Origin: a virus
Direction: 5' to 3' (one strand)
Virus record (IMG/VR): IMGVR_UViG_3300045135_000017
Span: 1-23,839 of that record
Length of the DNA: 23,839 bases
Shown here in pieces: positions 1,031-20,472 of this stretch. Each line of letters starts with the position of its first letter. The first letter of the stretch is position 1. A model generated the notes under the pieces. It ran no database searches. It was not told where the DNA came from and was given only the letters and a program-made list of their open reading frames with translations. A program made the position numbers and the translations under genes.

Positions 1031-2965
1031 TTAACCGAATATACCACCTAGATTATCAAAGCCACCTGTCAGGAATGTACCAATCAATTTACCAAATGAA
1101 ACTGATGAAGCGTAGTCATTCTTCAAACTTTGAATGTCGGCATTTTTATCGCCCTGAAGTTTGATCTGTGCCAGTTTGTTAACACGGTCACGTTCATTCT
1201 CAGCAGATTGCCATGCAAATTCCATACTATCTGAATAGTAGTTCCACAAGTTATTGTATGCAGTCTCTGACATGTTTAGAATTGACTTAGCATTAAGTTC
1301 ATTAGCACGGTTGATAGCTGCTGTGTTTGCAGTTGCAACTTCCCTACGCCATTGTACATTATTTTGGTCAATAACTAAACGGTTTTTTGCATTAAATTGT
1401 TGTCGTTGATTTTCTAACTCAGCGTTAAAACGTTCTTGTGCGTTAAGTTCACCAGCCCTAAACTGTTCCATAGCATTATTCTGTGATGCATTGAACTGTG
1501 ATGTTTGTGCTTGCAGGTTAGCAAAGAACTGGTTAGTCTGGTTTTCAGATGTAGCATTAAACTGACGTGCAGCATTCTCAGCAGCTTGGTCTGTAAACAA
1601 GGCTTGCTGCATAGCTTGTGCTTTAAACATTGTGGTTTGTTGTGCATTGGTAAGGTTAGCCATGTCCATCTGCATAAAGTTCTGTGCATTTAGAACTGCA
1701 GCTTGCTGACGGTTAGACAAGTTAGCCATGTCTAGCTGAGATAACGCAGCAGCCTCTGCCATTACAAGAGCTTGTTCATTGTTTAAGTTCTGTAGATTGA
1801 CAGTGTTAGCAATACGTGAGTTTTCAAGAGCAACCTGCTGTTCAGCAGTGAAGTTCATGTTAGCTATATCACTAACCTTGGACGCATTAATAACACGAGA
1901 TTGGAATGCTTGGTCAAACTCCATACCAATAAAGGCCGCACGTTGTTGTGCAGCCAGCATTGCCCGTTCTTGACGGTTGGATAAGTTCTGTGCTTCAAAA
2001 GCAGCTTGTGTAGCTGCATCAGCTTGTGCAATAGGTAGCGCAGACTCCATAGCAGCCTGTACAACAGCCTGTCCAGCCATAGAGGATGCACCTAGCCCAC
2101 GTGCAGCCATCGCACTGGTAGCGGCTCTCATGGCCCCTGCAGCCCATGCAGGTGTTTTACCACCTTCAAAGTCTTGCATTAGGTTGTCTAGCTGACCTGA
2201 AACTGTAGCTTTTTGTGATGGCGTAGCAGTTGCAGCTTGCACTTGCTCTGTAAACTTAGCTGCTGCAGCCGCATCTGCTGCACCCGTAACCAATTCACCA
2301 GATTGAATCTGACGTTGGGTAGGGTTATTCATTAAAATGCCAGTACCCTGTGCACTTTGTAGTGTGGATACAGATGTTCCCTGTTGTGTTTGTGCTTGAA
2401 CTAAATTTTGTTGATCTAAAGAACCTTGTGCAGCCTCTACTTCAGCTAACTGTTGTTGCATATCAGCAGTTACAGTATCAGCAGTTGTAGTAGCAGCACC
2501 AGTTGCAGTTGGTGCTTTAGCAGTATCTGTCTTACGAAGCATTGTAGTTTTAGCTTCAATATCACCAGTTACATCACCAACATTAGCCCCCATGAACTGT
2601 TGATCTTGTAGACCAATACCTGTGGCAGTTACTTTACCACCTGTAGGCAAAGCAGGATTGTAGGCTAAGTTAGCCATTTGATCTTCTAGTGGTCTAGCTT
2701 TGTTAGATGCGGCACCTTCACCATAATCAGCTAAGTCATCTTGATCTTCAGCAGAACCACTGTTAGAGAATGCAAGTTTTTTCTTGTTAGGAACCATACC
2801 ACCTTTTAACATGCCAATAGCCATGTCTTTGTATTGGTTCATCAGAGTTTGTTGTTCAGGGTTCTGAGCTAAGTAAGTGGCAAATTGTGACATGTCACCA
2901 GAGTAGCCCATAGTACGTGCTAATCTCTCTTCTGCTTCAGGTTTAAATCCTCTAAACTGTATCAT
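1031..2965 (-). CDS. Probable internal virion/ejection protein with 22- and 11-residue helical repeats (644 aa)
   Basis: A large Gln, Asn and Ala-rich protein, predicted almost wholly helical from about residue 165. The N-terminus (about 1-60) is a compact conserved-looking segment starting MIQFRGFKPEAEERLARTMG. Residues 327-458 carry 22-residue repeats with the motif N-[LF]-[STN]-N-x-Q at 327, 371, 393, 415 and 437. From 468 to about 530 the period becomes exactly 11, with Q/R-F-[N/F/R] at 468, 479, 490, 501, 512 and 523. Such 11-residue repeats favour right-handed coiled coils or amphipathic helices. The C-terminus is glycine-rich and hydrophobic (FGKLIGTFLTGGFDNLGGIFG). Podovirus ejection proteins of the T7 and P22 types are likewise long, helical and Ala/Gln-rich; assignment to that role rests on composition and position. 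A TAGGA ribosome site precedes ATG 2965. Confidence 0.8.
   Translation of the reverse strand: MIQFRGFKPEAEERLARTMGYSGDMSQFATYLAQNPEQQTLMNQYKDMAIGMLKGGMVPNKKKLAFSNSGSAEDQDDLADYGEGAASNKARPLEDQMANLAYNPALPTGGKVTATGIGLQDQQFMGANVGDVTGDIEAKTTMLRKTDTAKAPTATGAATTTADTVTADMQQQLAEVEAAQGSLDQQNLVQAQTQQGTSVSTLQSAQGTGILMNNPTQRQIQSGELVTGAADAAAAAKFTEQVQAATATPSQKATVSGQLDNLMQDFEGGKTPAWAAGAMRAATSAMAARGLGASSMAGQAVVQAAMESALPIAQADAATQAAFEAQNLSNRQERAMLAAQQRAAFIGMEFDQAFQSRVINASKVSDIANMNFTAEQQVALENSRIANTVNLQNLNNEQALVMAEAAALSQLDMANLSNRQQAAVLNAQNFMQMDMANLTNAQQTTMFKAQAMQQALFTDQAAENAARQFNATSENQTNQFFANLQAQTSQFNASQNNAMEQFRAGELNAQERFNAELENQRQQFNAKNRLVIDQNNVQWRREVATANTAAINRANELNAKSILNMSETAYNNLWNYYSDSMEFAWQSAENERDRVNKLAQIKLQGDKNADIQSLKNDYASSVSFGKLIGTFLTGGFDNLGGIFG
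1367..1987 (-). repeat. 22-residue then 11-residue coding repeats
   Basis: In-frame protein repeats within the 644-aa gene. Units of 22 residues begin at residues 327, (349 degenerate), 371, 393, 415 and 437; six consecutive 11-residue units begin at 468, 479, 490, 501, 512 and 523. At the DNA level the copies have diverged, so the periodicity is maintained at the protein level and this is not a recent tandem duplication. Confidence 0.85.
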
Positions 2966-16127: not shown

Positions 16128-16832
16128 TCATTTCCTTTTATTGACAAATAAGAGTGCTGATTTTTTCCAGTACATATTATTTTCTTGTGGGTATACTATT
16201 TCAACTACGTCAGTATAGTATGGTAATATCTTTTCTATTATCTTAAATCTATTTGGTGCTACAAGGTTTTTGTATTCTAGTTTGTTTACATCATCTCTGT
16301 ATGACCAAACAACACCATCAAATGTCATATCACCACGATTTAAAAAGTTTTGTCTATCCTCAAATGTTTCAAACAAATACATAGGATCACAAAACGTAAG
16401 TAAGAAGTTACCTTCTTTGTTTACTCTGTTAGATGAACAGTATAGTGAATTTACTGCATCATCTACAGATTTAGAGTGTACATAGCCTATCCACAGAAAA
16501 GTAACTAGGTCATATAAAGTATTAAGTTTTACTTTCTTTATATCACCAACTAAGTACTTTATGTCTTTGCTAGTAGTTTCTTTTGCGTAATTGATCATAT
16601 CTGCTGAACGATCAATACCGTGTTTTTCTACGTCAGATGTTACAGTGTTAAGGTGATAACCCGTTCCACATGCAACATCTAACCAATTTGTTTTATTTTG
16701 TAGTAAGTTCTCTATTATGTTTATTTCAAACTTAGTGTGTTGATAGTGTGCTTCATCTAAAAGGTACAGATTATTATATACATCTGCGTATTCTTTTGTG
16801 TAAGGCTTACTATACGACTTCTCCGTTTTCAC
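16128..16832 (-). CDS. Class I SAM-dependent methyltransferase, 234 aa
   Basis: Rossmann-type methyltransferase. Counting from the outer GTG at 16853, motif I is WLDVACGTGYH at 57-67, the acidic end of strand 2 is GIDRSADMI (D81), and motif III is LVGDIKKVKL with D104. I see no DPPY, NPPY or PCQ motif of DNA methyltransferases, so a small-molecule, protein or cap-type substrate is more likely; the substrate is unknown. GTG 16832 is preferred as start because GGAG lies 7 nt before it; this gives a 23-nt overlap with the 1220-aa gene. The outer GTG 16853 has no such site. Hand counts of four 60-nt stretches gave about 23-37% G+C, lower than about 48% in one portal stretch, which suggests later acquisition. 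It sits among head genes, where a methyltransferase is unexpected. Confidence 0.85.
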   Translation of the reverse strand: MKTEKSYSKPYTKEYADVYNNLYLLDEAHYQHTKFEINIIENLLQNKTNWLDVACGTGYHLNTVTSDVEKHGIDRSADMINYAKETTSKDIKYLVGDIKKVKLNTLYDLVTFLWIGYVHSKSVDDAVNSLYCSSNRVNKEGNFLLTFCDPMYLFETFEDRQNFLNRGDMTFDGVVWSYRDDVNKLEYKNLVAPNRFKIIEKILPYYTDVVEIVYPQENNMYWKKSALLFVNKRK

Positions 16833-19800
16833 GTATAAACTCCGTATCTCCACCTACAGTATCAAATAGTTTCATCCATAGGCTCTTTACAGGAGAGTAT
16901 ATCACACCGTGTTTGTTCTGTCCATAGTAATATTTACCATATGATACTAGTGGATCAGCAAATGTTTTAGTTACTAACCATTTAATAACAGATGACTTAC
17001 GCATTAATGGAACAAGTACTTCTGCTACTTTATAATATCCACGACGATTGCGTTCAGTCATGTGTTCATCACGATAGCGGCGTACAACTTCGTCCATTGT
17101 ACCATCACCGTAACGGGCTTCTAGCATAATGAAGCAGCAGCCGCCACTATCAGATTTTGATTCAGTCTTACCGCCACTATCCTTATTACTACTTTTCTTT
17201 GTAGTAGTAGTCTTAACTGTATCAGATTTCTTTTTCATTTTAGCGTCATAAGTTTTATCTGCAAACTCAACCTTCTGAACGCCTTTACCTGCAATTTTAA
17301 CTGCCTGACCATGTTTACCATCTGCTGCAGCTTCAGCCAAACTACTATATGTTTTTTCTCCACCATCATCTGATTTAGTAGACTTTGTTGTAGTTTTAGT
17401 AGAAGTCTTAGTAGACTTAGTTGATTTAGTAGAAGTTTTTGTTTTACTCTTACTATCGTCTACAACTTCTACTGGTTTAAGGAAACCTGATGATACAGCA
17501 CGTCCTTCATCAATAGCAGTCTGAATACTACCACCATACTTTTCAGCTTGTTCCATATCGTTTGCAGATAAACCAAGTGATGCGCCAACTGCTGGATCAA
17601 AGTTACTTTCAGCATATGCATCTTGTTTATTACGCAGTCTGTTAACAGAAGCAAAGTGATTTGCTACAGCACTGTCGCCTCTATCTACAGCAGCATCAAA
17701 TGCAGTTTGCTCTGCATCAGAAAGTATATTCTTAGTAAATCCAGCAGACAATTGTTTATTTGCTGTTGGATCATATTTACCTTTTGTAACTTTTACTTCT
17801 GCTTCTGCAGCTTTTGCTGCTGCCTCTTCTGCAGTTTCAGTAGTATAGGTTTTACCTTCAAACGTAAACGTTGCTGCACCTGCTGCTCTGTTACGTGCAA
17901 AGGCATCACTAAATGATTCTTTAGCTACACCAGCTTCAGGAATAATATCTTTTAGTTTTATATCAGCTACAGGAGTACCCTTTGCTTCTTCTATAGGTGT
18001 TCCAAAGGCATCGTATTTAATATCTTCAGGTTTAACTTTATCTTGTATCTCTTGTGATGGCGTAACCTGTGTTACCGTTTGGCCTACACCTACAGGTTGC
18101 GACATAAGCATTTCTTCTTTACGAGCATCACTTACAACGGGTTGTTGCATTAGTGCTGTTTCTTTTTTATCATCTTCAGTTTTAAGTTTAAATGCTTCAG
18201 CAGTTTGTTGATTAAAGCCAACTGTGCCTACACCCGTTTGTATTTGTTGTTCTACAAGAGGTTTCTGTTCCATAAAGGATTTTATTTCAGTTCCTGTATA
18301 ACCTGCAGCTTCTAAGTCAGCACGTTCTAGATTACCAGTTTGACCATATACTTGTTGTGCATAGTCACCAATATCTTGCTCTTGTTGTGCTGCAGAAAAT
18401 GAACTTACAGTTTTCGGTGCTTCAGTTGGATACTGATACGCCTGACCTGTGTACGCTTCTGTATCTGTAGTAGTAGGTTGGAACGCTGCAGTTGTTTGAG
18501 CATCTACTGTACCACGTCCTGCTTCACCCATATCCATTGTAGCATATGAAGGGGCAGAAACATCAGTAGTTGGCATAGGTGCTTCCATTGCCTCAAGACC
18601 AGTTTGTGTTGGCGTAGTAAATGATGTAGATGCAGCAGGGATAGTTGCCTCTGCAAGATTACGATCAACACCTGCATTAACCAATGTTTGTACTTGATTA
18701 TTACGTTGAGTTTGCAAGAAGTCTGTAGTACTTGTTGGTGTAGTCGTAGCCTGAGTTGTAGTTGTAGCAAAGTCACGAGTAATAGGCATTGAGGTGCTAT
18801 CAGAAGTATCTAGCATACCCATAGCTGTACCAGCCTCTTGACGTGCTGCTGATGCTGCTCGTGATGTATCAGTAAGACCCATAGGCTCTGTAGCTGGGTC
18901 TAAACGTGGCGTATCAACTGGAAGTATCTGTGACGCATCTTCACGAAGTGTGTCAACAACATCTCTGTAGTTTGTACCATCATAGCCTAGAAATGCCTTT
19001 TGCGTATCTGACATATCATCTAGCTGCGCTTTAACACCATCTAAGTTTTGATATACAGCATTTACAAGTGCAATACGTGTATCTTCACCACCAGCTTGTA
19101 CGGCACTCATAATTGAAGGATCAACAAAGTTGCCTAGCTCTTCACCAATGTGATTTGCCATATTTGTAATAGCTGTATCGTATAGTGCTTTGTCAACAGA
19201 GGTTGGGTCTTCTTGGTATGCTGCAATAACTGTGTTAGCTGCTGTATACTGGTCTGTAGTAAATGTGCTACCTGCTACACCAATCATGCCTGTGTTCAGT
19301 GCATCAATAGCTTCTTGTGTAGCTTGTCCTTGTGTATTAGCATATGTATCAATGTTACGGCTGTGAGAAATCAAGTTTGCATTTGCACCTTTTTCTTTCT
19401 GTGCATCCGTAAGACCAAGCATGTCACCAACAGTGTTAATAATTTTATTAATGATGCCGCCAAACAAACCTTTCTGACGATCCTCATAGCCTTTGATCAT
19501 TTCTTCATAGGCAGCACGTTGACCAGCAGGTAAGTTAGCTAGACGAGCTTTAGCCATTTCAAGAATACGGTTATCTTCATAACGTAGCATTGCACCCATA
19601 CCGATTGCTGCAAGGGGGCTAATCAAAGATGCAACACCCATAGCTAGGTTACGACCAAAACCATTACGTTCATTTGCTTTATCTAAAAACTCTTCGTCGG
19701 ATAAAGAATCCCAATCAATAGAATCATCTTGTCCTGATGCTTTGTAGGCATTGATTGCTGCCATGTCAGGGCCATCACTCTGCACTGCTGCACTAATTGT

Positions 19801-20472
19801 TTCAGCACCTGTAGATGGTAGTTGAGGAGCTTCAATACCCTCTTCTCCTTCACCTGTATAAAGTGTATAACCTTCAGGAATAGGATAAAGAGGTACACCG
19901 CCAATAAACGGAACCATAAGGCTCTGTCCTTCAGCGTTACGATACTCTTTAAACTCCATCTTGGCATCAGCCATAACTTCATCAAAAGTTACTTGAGGAC
20001 GATCAGGATCACTTTGCATAGGTACGTCTTGCTGCAAAGAGCCTAGTGAAATACTTTCACCTGCTTGATCATCTGCCATACCACTTTGGTTAAATGCTAG
20101 ACCCCCATCTGCCATTTTAACTTCTTTTTCATTGCCGTTATCGTCTACGTCTACTATGATAAGATCACCCATACCAAAAGGCATGTCAGTAGGTAATGTT
20201 GCCTCATCCGCATTACCCATCAACCCCATTGCTTCCATTTTCTTCATGCCCATCATGGCTTCATCACGCATACCTAAAAACGTTTTCAAACCATGATAGC
20301 GTGTAGTGGCTTCATCTGCCACCCATTCACCTGCACTTAGTCGTGCATCAATGTCATCACGCACACCTTTCTTAGTACCGCCAGTTGGAACTTTGTTCCC
20401 TGACACTTCATCAATTTCTCCACCCTCATCTTTGAGGCCACCTTTTTGGTACATTTGAGGTCGATTCATCAT
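16810..20472 (-). CDS. Large virion-region protein with CFI-box-like C-terminus, 1220 aa
   Basis: Order of parts: an N-terminal segment GGTKKGVRDDIDARLSAGEW (31-50) followed by RYHGLK, a motif common in large marine phage proteins; an acidic linker with IPEGYTLYTGEG at about 198; a hydrophobic segment NLAMGVASLISPLAAIGMGA (about 275-294); an amphipathic stretch around 335-355; a Thr/Gln/Pro-rich middle (about 560-760); a Ser/Thr/Lys-rich linker (from about 1005); and a C-terminal domain of about 110 residues beginning GGCCFIMLEARYGDG (about 1110) and continuing VVRRYRDEHM and ADPLVSYGKYYY. The last part resembles the CFI-box C-terminal domain (CFIATAAYG) of many bacterial proteins. ATG 20472 has AGGA 7 nt upstream. 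It lies between portal and scaffold, so it may be an internal or ejected virion protein; the function is not known. Confidence 0.8.
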   Translation of the reverse strand: MMNRPQMYQKGGLKDEGGEIDEVSGNKVPTGGTKKGVRDDIDARLSAGEWVADEATTRYHGLKTFLGMRDEAMMGMKKMEAMGLMGNADEATLPTDMPFGMGDLIIVDVDDNGNEKEVKMADGGLAFNQSGMADDQAGESISLGSLQQDVPMQSDPDRPQVTFDEVMADAKMEFKEYRNAEGQSLMVPFIGGVPLYPIPEGYTLYTGEGEEGIEAPQLPSTGAETISAAVQSDGPDMAAINAYKASGQDDSIDWDSLSDEEFLDKANERNGFGRNLAMGVASLISPLAAIGMGAMLRYEDNRILEMAKARLANLPAGQRAAYEEMIKGYEDRQKGLFGGIINKIINTVGDMLGLTDAQKEKGANANLISHSRNIDTYANTQGQATQEAIDALNTGMIGVAGSTFTTDQYTAANTVIAAYQEDPTSVDKALYDTAITNMANHIGEELGNFVDPSIMSAVQAGGEDTRIALVNAVYQNLDGVKAQLDDMSDTQKAFLGYDGTNYRDVVDTLREDASQILPVDTPRLDPATEPMGLTDTSRAASAARQEAGTAMGMLDTSDSTSMPITRDFATTTTQATTTPTSTTDFLQTQRNNQVQTLVNAGVDRNLAEATIPAASTSFTTPTQTGLEAMEAPMPTTDVSAPSYATMDMGEAGRGTVDAQTTAAFQPTTTDTEAYTGQAYQYPTEAPKTVSSFSAAQQEQDIGDYAQQVYGQTGNLERADLEAAGYTGTEIKSFMEQKPLVEQQIQTGVGTVGFNQQTAEAFKLKTEDDKKETALMQQPVVSDARKEEMLMSQPVGVGQTVTQVTPSQEIQDKVKPEDIKYDAFGTPIEEAKGTPVADIKLKDIIPEAGVAKESFSDAFARNRAAGAATFTFEGKTYTTETAEEAAAKAAEAEVKVTKGKYDPTANKQLSAGFTKNILSDAEQTAFDAAVDRGDSAVANHFASVNRLRNKQDAYAESNFDPAVGASLGLSANDMEQAEKYGGSIQTAIDEGRAVSSGFLKPVEVVDDSKSKTKTSTKSTKSTKTSTKTTTKSTKSDDGGEKTYSSLAEAAADGKHGQAVKIAGKGVQKVEFADKTYDAKMKKKSDTVKTTTTKKSSNKDSGGKTESKSDSGGCCFIMLEARYGDGTMDEVVRRYRDEHMTERNRRGYYKVAEVLVPLMRKSSVIKWLVTKTFADPLVSYGKYYYGQNKHGVIYSPVKSLWMKLFDTVGGDTEFIRENGEVV

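Follow-up and report, generated by a model that had tools for sequence, protein, structure and literature searches.

The 644-aa protein encoded on the minus strand at positions 1031-2965 of the window, by which the whole 23,839-nucleotide stretch of viral DNA is meant, carries a repeat array that is predicted to be helical, lies on a single Asn-marked 11-residue lattice, changes length by whole units among its homologues and sits in a conserved gene neighbourhood. It is tentatively proposed, at rather less than even confidence, that the protein represents an undescribed family of phage genome-delivery rods in which 22-residue units, or 110-residue super-units in one lineage, are added or removed in register, giving length-tunable conduits or solenoids of ~2 to 32 units. 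The 23.8-kb fragment belongs to an HMO-2011-type podovirus, with the gene order large terminase, SU10-type portal and adaptor, major head protein, tail fibre and a terminal cassette; this type is one of the most abundant kinds of marine phage (PMC9038755). The protein is homologous to gp44 of the Roseobacter phage CRP-345 (92% identity) and to HMO-2011 gp25 (55% identity), and relatives occur in pelagiphages, roseophages, rhizobiophages, Aeromonas and Vibrio podoviruses and one Pseudoalteromonas phage, with many more on viral contigs from metagenomes. None of these relatives has a functional name save for one 'huntingtin' label, and the gene is hypothetical in nearly all HMO-2011-type phage annotations. 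Neither the repeat nor the protein has a family in Pfam, NCBIfam or PHROGs, phmmer and profile searches of PDB chains gave no match with a meaningful E-value, and a scan of host genome contigs found no relative. Foldseek returned nothing significant from the PDB, the top rows being helical or designed repeats, and one significant match among viral models, a phage protein with DUF4214, presumably homologous, the rest being unspecific long helices. The repeat is undescribed in the libraries searched. A DUF4214 domain is also seen towards the N-terminus of a homologue with a long array (L192, 3001-6558).

All parts of the protein lie on the minus strand. The N-terminal domain (residues 1-55, 2801-2965) is modelled by AlphaFold with helices at 9-18, 25-34 and 36-54, at pLDDT 74-83 for residues 11-50, and L148, a freshwater relative, has these helices in the same location. 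Anchor A (residues 292-334, GASS...ALPIAQADA...NLSNRQ, 1964-2092) is the conserved entry to the array and is preceded in the homologues by ~165 to 780 residues (L092, L093, L206); the array proteins of CRP-2 and CRP-603 exceed 1000 residues. Block 1 (residues 327-458, 1592-1987) consists of six 22-residue units, anchor D (residues 452-474, QALFTDQAAENAARQFN, 1544-1612) forms the junction, and block 2 (residues 459-530, 1376-1591) is made of 11-residue units with Q/R-F-N. Anchor B (residues 528-572, VIDQNNVQWRREVATA..., 1250-1384) follows, and the Asn lattice runs on into it to residue 558. The protein ends in a Gly-rich hydrophobic tail (residues 618-644, 1034-1114), which in relatives is replaced or extended by other modules (CWVAREVYG box, Peptidase_S74). 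This tail is not family-wide, as only ~41% of tails look glycine-zipper-like and their hydropathy is modest; the idea of a membrane-inserting tail common to the whole family was dropped for this reason.

The initial annotation had described, at 1367-1987, a 22-residue motif, N-[LF]-[STN]-N-x-Q, followed by an exact 11-residue repeat; these positions correspond to residues 327-533. The shorter repeat is as described, with Q/R-F at 468, 479, 490, 501, 512 (RF) and 523; the longer one is exact in register and degenerate in motif, as four of six units match to the letter (327, 393, 415 and 437), unit 371 has one change (NFTAEQ) and unit 349 hardly fits (EFDQAF). The 11-residue period is far above chance: residues 320-560 hold 185 self-identities at lags 11, 22, 33 and 44 against 89 +/- 9 in 20,000 shuffles (maximum 135), and base periods of 7-10 and 12-15 give 74-100, with no excess. 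No 11-residue signal was seen in eleven ejection proteins treated likewise (T7 gp14-16, P22 gp7, gp20 and gp16, SU10 gp20-24). Asn keeps a single phase (8 mod 11) over residues 327-558, filling 15 of 22 positions through both blocks, and in 52 representatives it marks 22-mer positions 1 and 12 (70% and 69%) and 11-mer position 1 (74%), again in one phase. Of the proposal that both blocks form one hendecad lattice with a 2-residue phase shift between them, the single 11-residue lattice holds, and the shift belongs to the hydrophobic stripe while the Asn lattice is unshifted: the strongest hydrophobic marker passes from N+1 (Leu) in block 1 to N-1 (Phe) in block 2, which rotates the hydrophobic face by ~150 degrees relative to Asn.

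Distances between anchors A, D and B were measured with small HMMs in 293 homologues. The A-B distance, which spans about 126 to 786 residues, equals 5 mod 11 in 292 of the 293 proteins and in 15 of the 16 distinct lengths. The A-D lengths (50, 72, 94, 116, 160, 226, 270, 336, 380, 490, 600 and 710) are all 22n+6, a reading of 93 in nineteen proteins being due to a one-residue gap within the anchor itself, so that block 1 ranges from ~2 to 32 units and changes by whole 22-mers. The D-B lengths (54, 65, 76, 87, 98, 109, 120 and 197) are all 11m+10, and block 2 changes by whole 11-mers. Indels that are not multiples of 11, named at the outset as evidence against the lattice, are absent from the arrays of the 293 homologues apart from a single +1 insertion (D-B of 99 in L110), found on a contig where the length of the match does not divide by three. 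As a control, the stretches ahead of A (155 distinct lengths) and behind B (42 distinct lengths) in these proteins fall in every residue class mod 11. On a tree of the anchors at least 26 changes in block 1 and 9 in block 2 are required, eight of the latter fitting 11m+10. Among 80 close homologues (median 74% identity in the region) no indel falls in residues 291-590, against 454 indel runs in residues 60-290. Quantised lengths of this kind would follow if delivery of the phage DNA depended essentially on the register of the array and not on its length. In one homologue (L139, IMGVR 3300048591_000011) a D-B distance of 197, eleven 11-mers above block 2 of the window, is accompanied by a short block 1.

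The array gene leads the final five genes of the structural module (644, 68, 180, 374 and 1156 aa in CRP-345), and so lies in the terminal structural cassette, as would be expected of an ejection gene of the T7, P22 or SU10 kind. Directly downstream, also on the minus strand, are a 68-aa gene (811-1017, homologue of CRP-345 gp43, often undetectable in relatives), a 180-aa gene (279-821, homologue of gp42) with a membrane-like hydrophobic stretch, and the start of a homologue of gp41 (1-279, 374 aa in CRP-345), which is cut by the window end. The gp42 homologue was detected in 270 of 304 loci, each time downstream of the array gene and on its strand. No other neighbour accompanies the array gene as constantly as this 180-aa partner (consensus PIPGQSLTAELGNRPWQQPPQYTTVEEALEYY), which has no family in Pfam or PHROGs and resembles a common cyanophage virion protein. 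Further domains are found in relatives: the homologues in CRP-235 (L096 911-3445), CRP-3 (L087 5224-7083) and CRP-212 (L098 1799-3583) end in a Peptidase_S74 domain (PF13884) that scores above the Pfam cut-off, the CRP-235 homologue also has a LysM peptidoglycan-binding domain, and in CRP-603 a Hydrolase_2 (cell-wall hydrolase) gene directly adjoins the array gene. The S74 domains of CRP-235, CRP-3 and CRP-212 and the LysM of CRP-235 point to domain exchange around a constant rod. Peptidase_S74 was not found in the 644-aa protein, and most of the family is without it.

The preferred reading is that the 644-aa protein is a virion-delivered ejection (pilot) protein of HMO-2011-type podoviruses and works like phiX174 H, by analogy with which the role is drawn; our judgement of it is evenly balanced. 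We infer this role from gene position, the co-conserved partner, LysM and S74 in relatives and the phiX174 H analogy, and an ejection or tube function is plausible, supported by gene order and analogy rather than by sequence relationship or virion proteomics. The constant A-B value of 5 mod 11, the absence of proline, the predicted helices, the gp42 homologue, LysM and Hydrolase_2 speak for it; against it stand the lack of homology to T7, P22 or SU10 proteins, a tail that is not family-wide, low pLDDT and arrays that would reach 118 nm. The protein would consist of an N-terminal helical head, a modular helical rod and a variable C-terminal module, and several copies may exit the head together with the DNA or before it. 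Through the in-register lattice these copies could assemble side by side into a helical, amide-rich rod or conduit that spans the periplasm and works in the manner of the phiX174 H tube, with the 180-aa partner and the C-terminal tail engaging the membrane. We infer the virion location, oligomer, conduit and membrane contact in this scheme. The register would be under strong selection, because a non-whole-unit insertion would rotate all downstream contacts, and total length would be free to evolve. Virion proteomics for the HMO-2011-type group was not found in the literature, the MQM1 paper having none; Peru-2 was considered as a source and dropped, as it is T7-like and unrelated.

The phiX174 H protein (PDB 4JPP) forms a DNA tube and combines Gln/Asn/Arg-rich hendecads with Ala/Gly/Ser-rich ends (PMC7354561, PMC4224467). 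The array protein is likewise a virus protein with predicted helical Gln/Asn/Arg-rich hendecads, a lattice type that changes along the rod and Ala/Gly/Ser-rich ends, and the trans-envelope role proposed for it is that of phiX174 H. The two differ in that hendecads give way to heptads in phiX174 H whereas 22-residue units give way to 11-residue ones on one Asn lattice here, and in length, with a coiled coil of ~121 residues against 126-786 in the array family; they have no sequence relation, and the array protein was modelled as a single chain. In the Kuravirus SU10, whose portal and adaptor types are matched in the window phage, five genes (gp20-24) also end the structural module (PMC9509320), and gp21 and gp22, at 25-26% Asn/Gln, are as rich in these residues as the array protein; however, gp20-24 have no detectable homology to it and no 11-residue periodicity. 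The ejection proteins of T7 (gp14-gp16) and P22 (gp7, gp20, gp16) resemble it in its putative role and in position in a short-tailed phage, but lack the repeat and show no homology. Alignment by hhalign to the T7, P22 and SU10 ejection proteins gave probabilities of 0.1-0.4%, meaning no homology, and therefore membership in any known ejection family is not claimed.

Helical structure is predicted throughout the array, but its form differs between the blocks and a rival arises here. A globular fold without long helices had been named as evidence against the hendecad proposal, and the AlphaFold monomers show only helices, long ones over residues 296-634 in the 644-aa protein, at low mean pLDDT (56 for this model and 48 for L148). 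Block 2 is modelled as one continuous helix at pLDDT 73-80; block 1 has long helices at pLDDT 45-60 in the 644-aa protein, whereas in L148 it is broken into separate helices starting at 363, 385, 407, 429, 451, 473, 495, 517 and 539, always at 22-mer position 4 and mostly at pLDDT 56-70. Because the L148 model breaks the helix every 22 residues, block 1 may be no plain coiled coil but a solenoid of one helix and a short turn per 22 residues, leaving block 2 alone as a straight hendecad rod. This is somewhat doubtful as a whole, although it agrees with an N-cap signature or capping box (position 3 is S/N/D/T in 94% and position 6 is Gln in 87%) and with a Gly/Asn share of 31% at position 21. 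The lack of proline argues for a continuous helix: it is absent from all 13,684 residues of both blocks in representatives, against 4.2% upstream, and from all 458 units, the turn and N1 positions included. The helix-propensity contrast is low. The long helices predicted for the 644-aa protein itself and the lack of a significant PDB match likewise speak against a solenoid. The hendecad coiled coil of the initial annotation is thus upheld in part, being helical in prediction with a continuous block 2; in block 1 the N-caps, the L148 breaks and the low hydrophobic moment count against it, and a 4-4-3 stripe is traceable in each block, with a moment that is low and not the strongest harmonic. 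A continuous hendecad helix is supported only for block 2; in block 1 a helix that breaks repeatedly, or a solenoid with one helix per unit, is equally possible. A straight helix rises 1.5 Angstrom per residue, so that the A-B span of the 644-aa protein (236 residues) would measure 35 nm, roughly the size of a periplasm, and the longest (786 residues) about 118 nm, beyond the Gram-negative periplasm; of all arguments this one weighs most against a simple tube in every member, and in a solenoid the problem disappears. The solenoid fits either functional reading, and could serve as a spacer or, within the head, as a surface that binds DNA or protein. Two other folds for the 22-mer were rejected: a beta-solenoid (Asn ladder, pentapeptide-like ANLxN), as both AlphaFold models are all-helical in the array, and alternating helical hairpins, as identity at even unit spacing is not above that at odd spacing.

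In the main rival to the ejection reading, the same rod stands on the tail as a trimeric needle or fibre, a right-handed hendecad coiled coil with exchangeable C-terminal tips and, in some relatives, a self-cleaving S74 chaperone. Such a function is unlikely, though the S74 domains of three relatives suggest a trimer over a wide tube, and exchangeable C-terminal modules, a variable length typical of fibre shafts and a gene that comes after the tail fibre gene are all in keeping with it. S74-chaperoned trimeric fibres (PF13884) are thereby matched in some relatives; the 644-aa protein and most of the family have a short tail with neither S74 nor a receptor-type tip, LysM is unusual as a fibre domain, a separate 1058-aa protein takes the fibre place, and the array gene with four further genes ends the structural module where SU10 has its ejection genes. 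That whole-unit length change is a mere product of tandem-repeat recombination, uninformative on structure, is quite improbable. The largest lineage does advance by A-D = 50 + 110k (160, 270, 380, 490, 600 and 710), five 22-mers per step, and in the longest arrays units five apart are most alike, up to 97% identical in DNA in two contigs (L174 and L176), so that some expansions are recent. Adjacent units in long arrays, however, are only ~43% identical in DNA, which is too little for them to misalign often, and the small non-unit indels that are frequent in the flanks are missing from the array; simple slippage therefore explains the recent gains but not the absence of small indels. Least probable is a coat on the host membrane formed by the repeats as amphipathic lipid-binding helices, as in apolipoproteins or alpha-synuclein. 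Apolipoproteins share the 11/22 numerology and some members of the array family have a hydrophobic tail, but the array has only a weak hydrophobic moment (0.10-0.12) at 98 degrees per residue, the face rotates between blocks, the array is rich in Asn/Gln without a lysine/glutamate pattern, and proline punctuation is absent.

Under the preferred ejection reading, the natural series of lengths, with the same anchors and 2 to 32 units of 22 residues, allows the control of rod length to be addressed, including whether the length of a DNA-delivery rod matches the host envelope. The structure is open to a direct test, as one expressed array would separate a continuous hendecad rod from a new one-helix 22-residue solenoid.

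Elsewhere in the window, a 1220-aa protein (16810-20472, minus strand) carries a cysteine-led C-terminal module, CCFIMLEARYG..., and a CWVAREVYG... module ends HMO-2011 gp25 and seven viral-contig homologues (C-termini of L068, L055 and L083); the cysteine-led module appears to move between the C-termini of different structural-module proteins. The 1220-aa protein also has a low-complexity Lys/Thr/Ser stretch at about residue 1001 with significant lag-10 self-similarity. A SAM-dependent methyltransferase gene (16128-16853, minus strand) lies within the structural module, between the gene for this protein and the scaffold region, and is present in CRP-345 as well.
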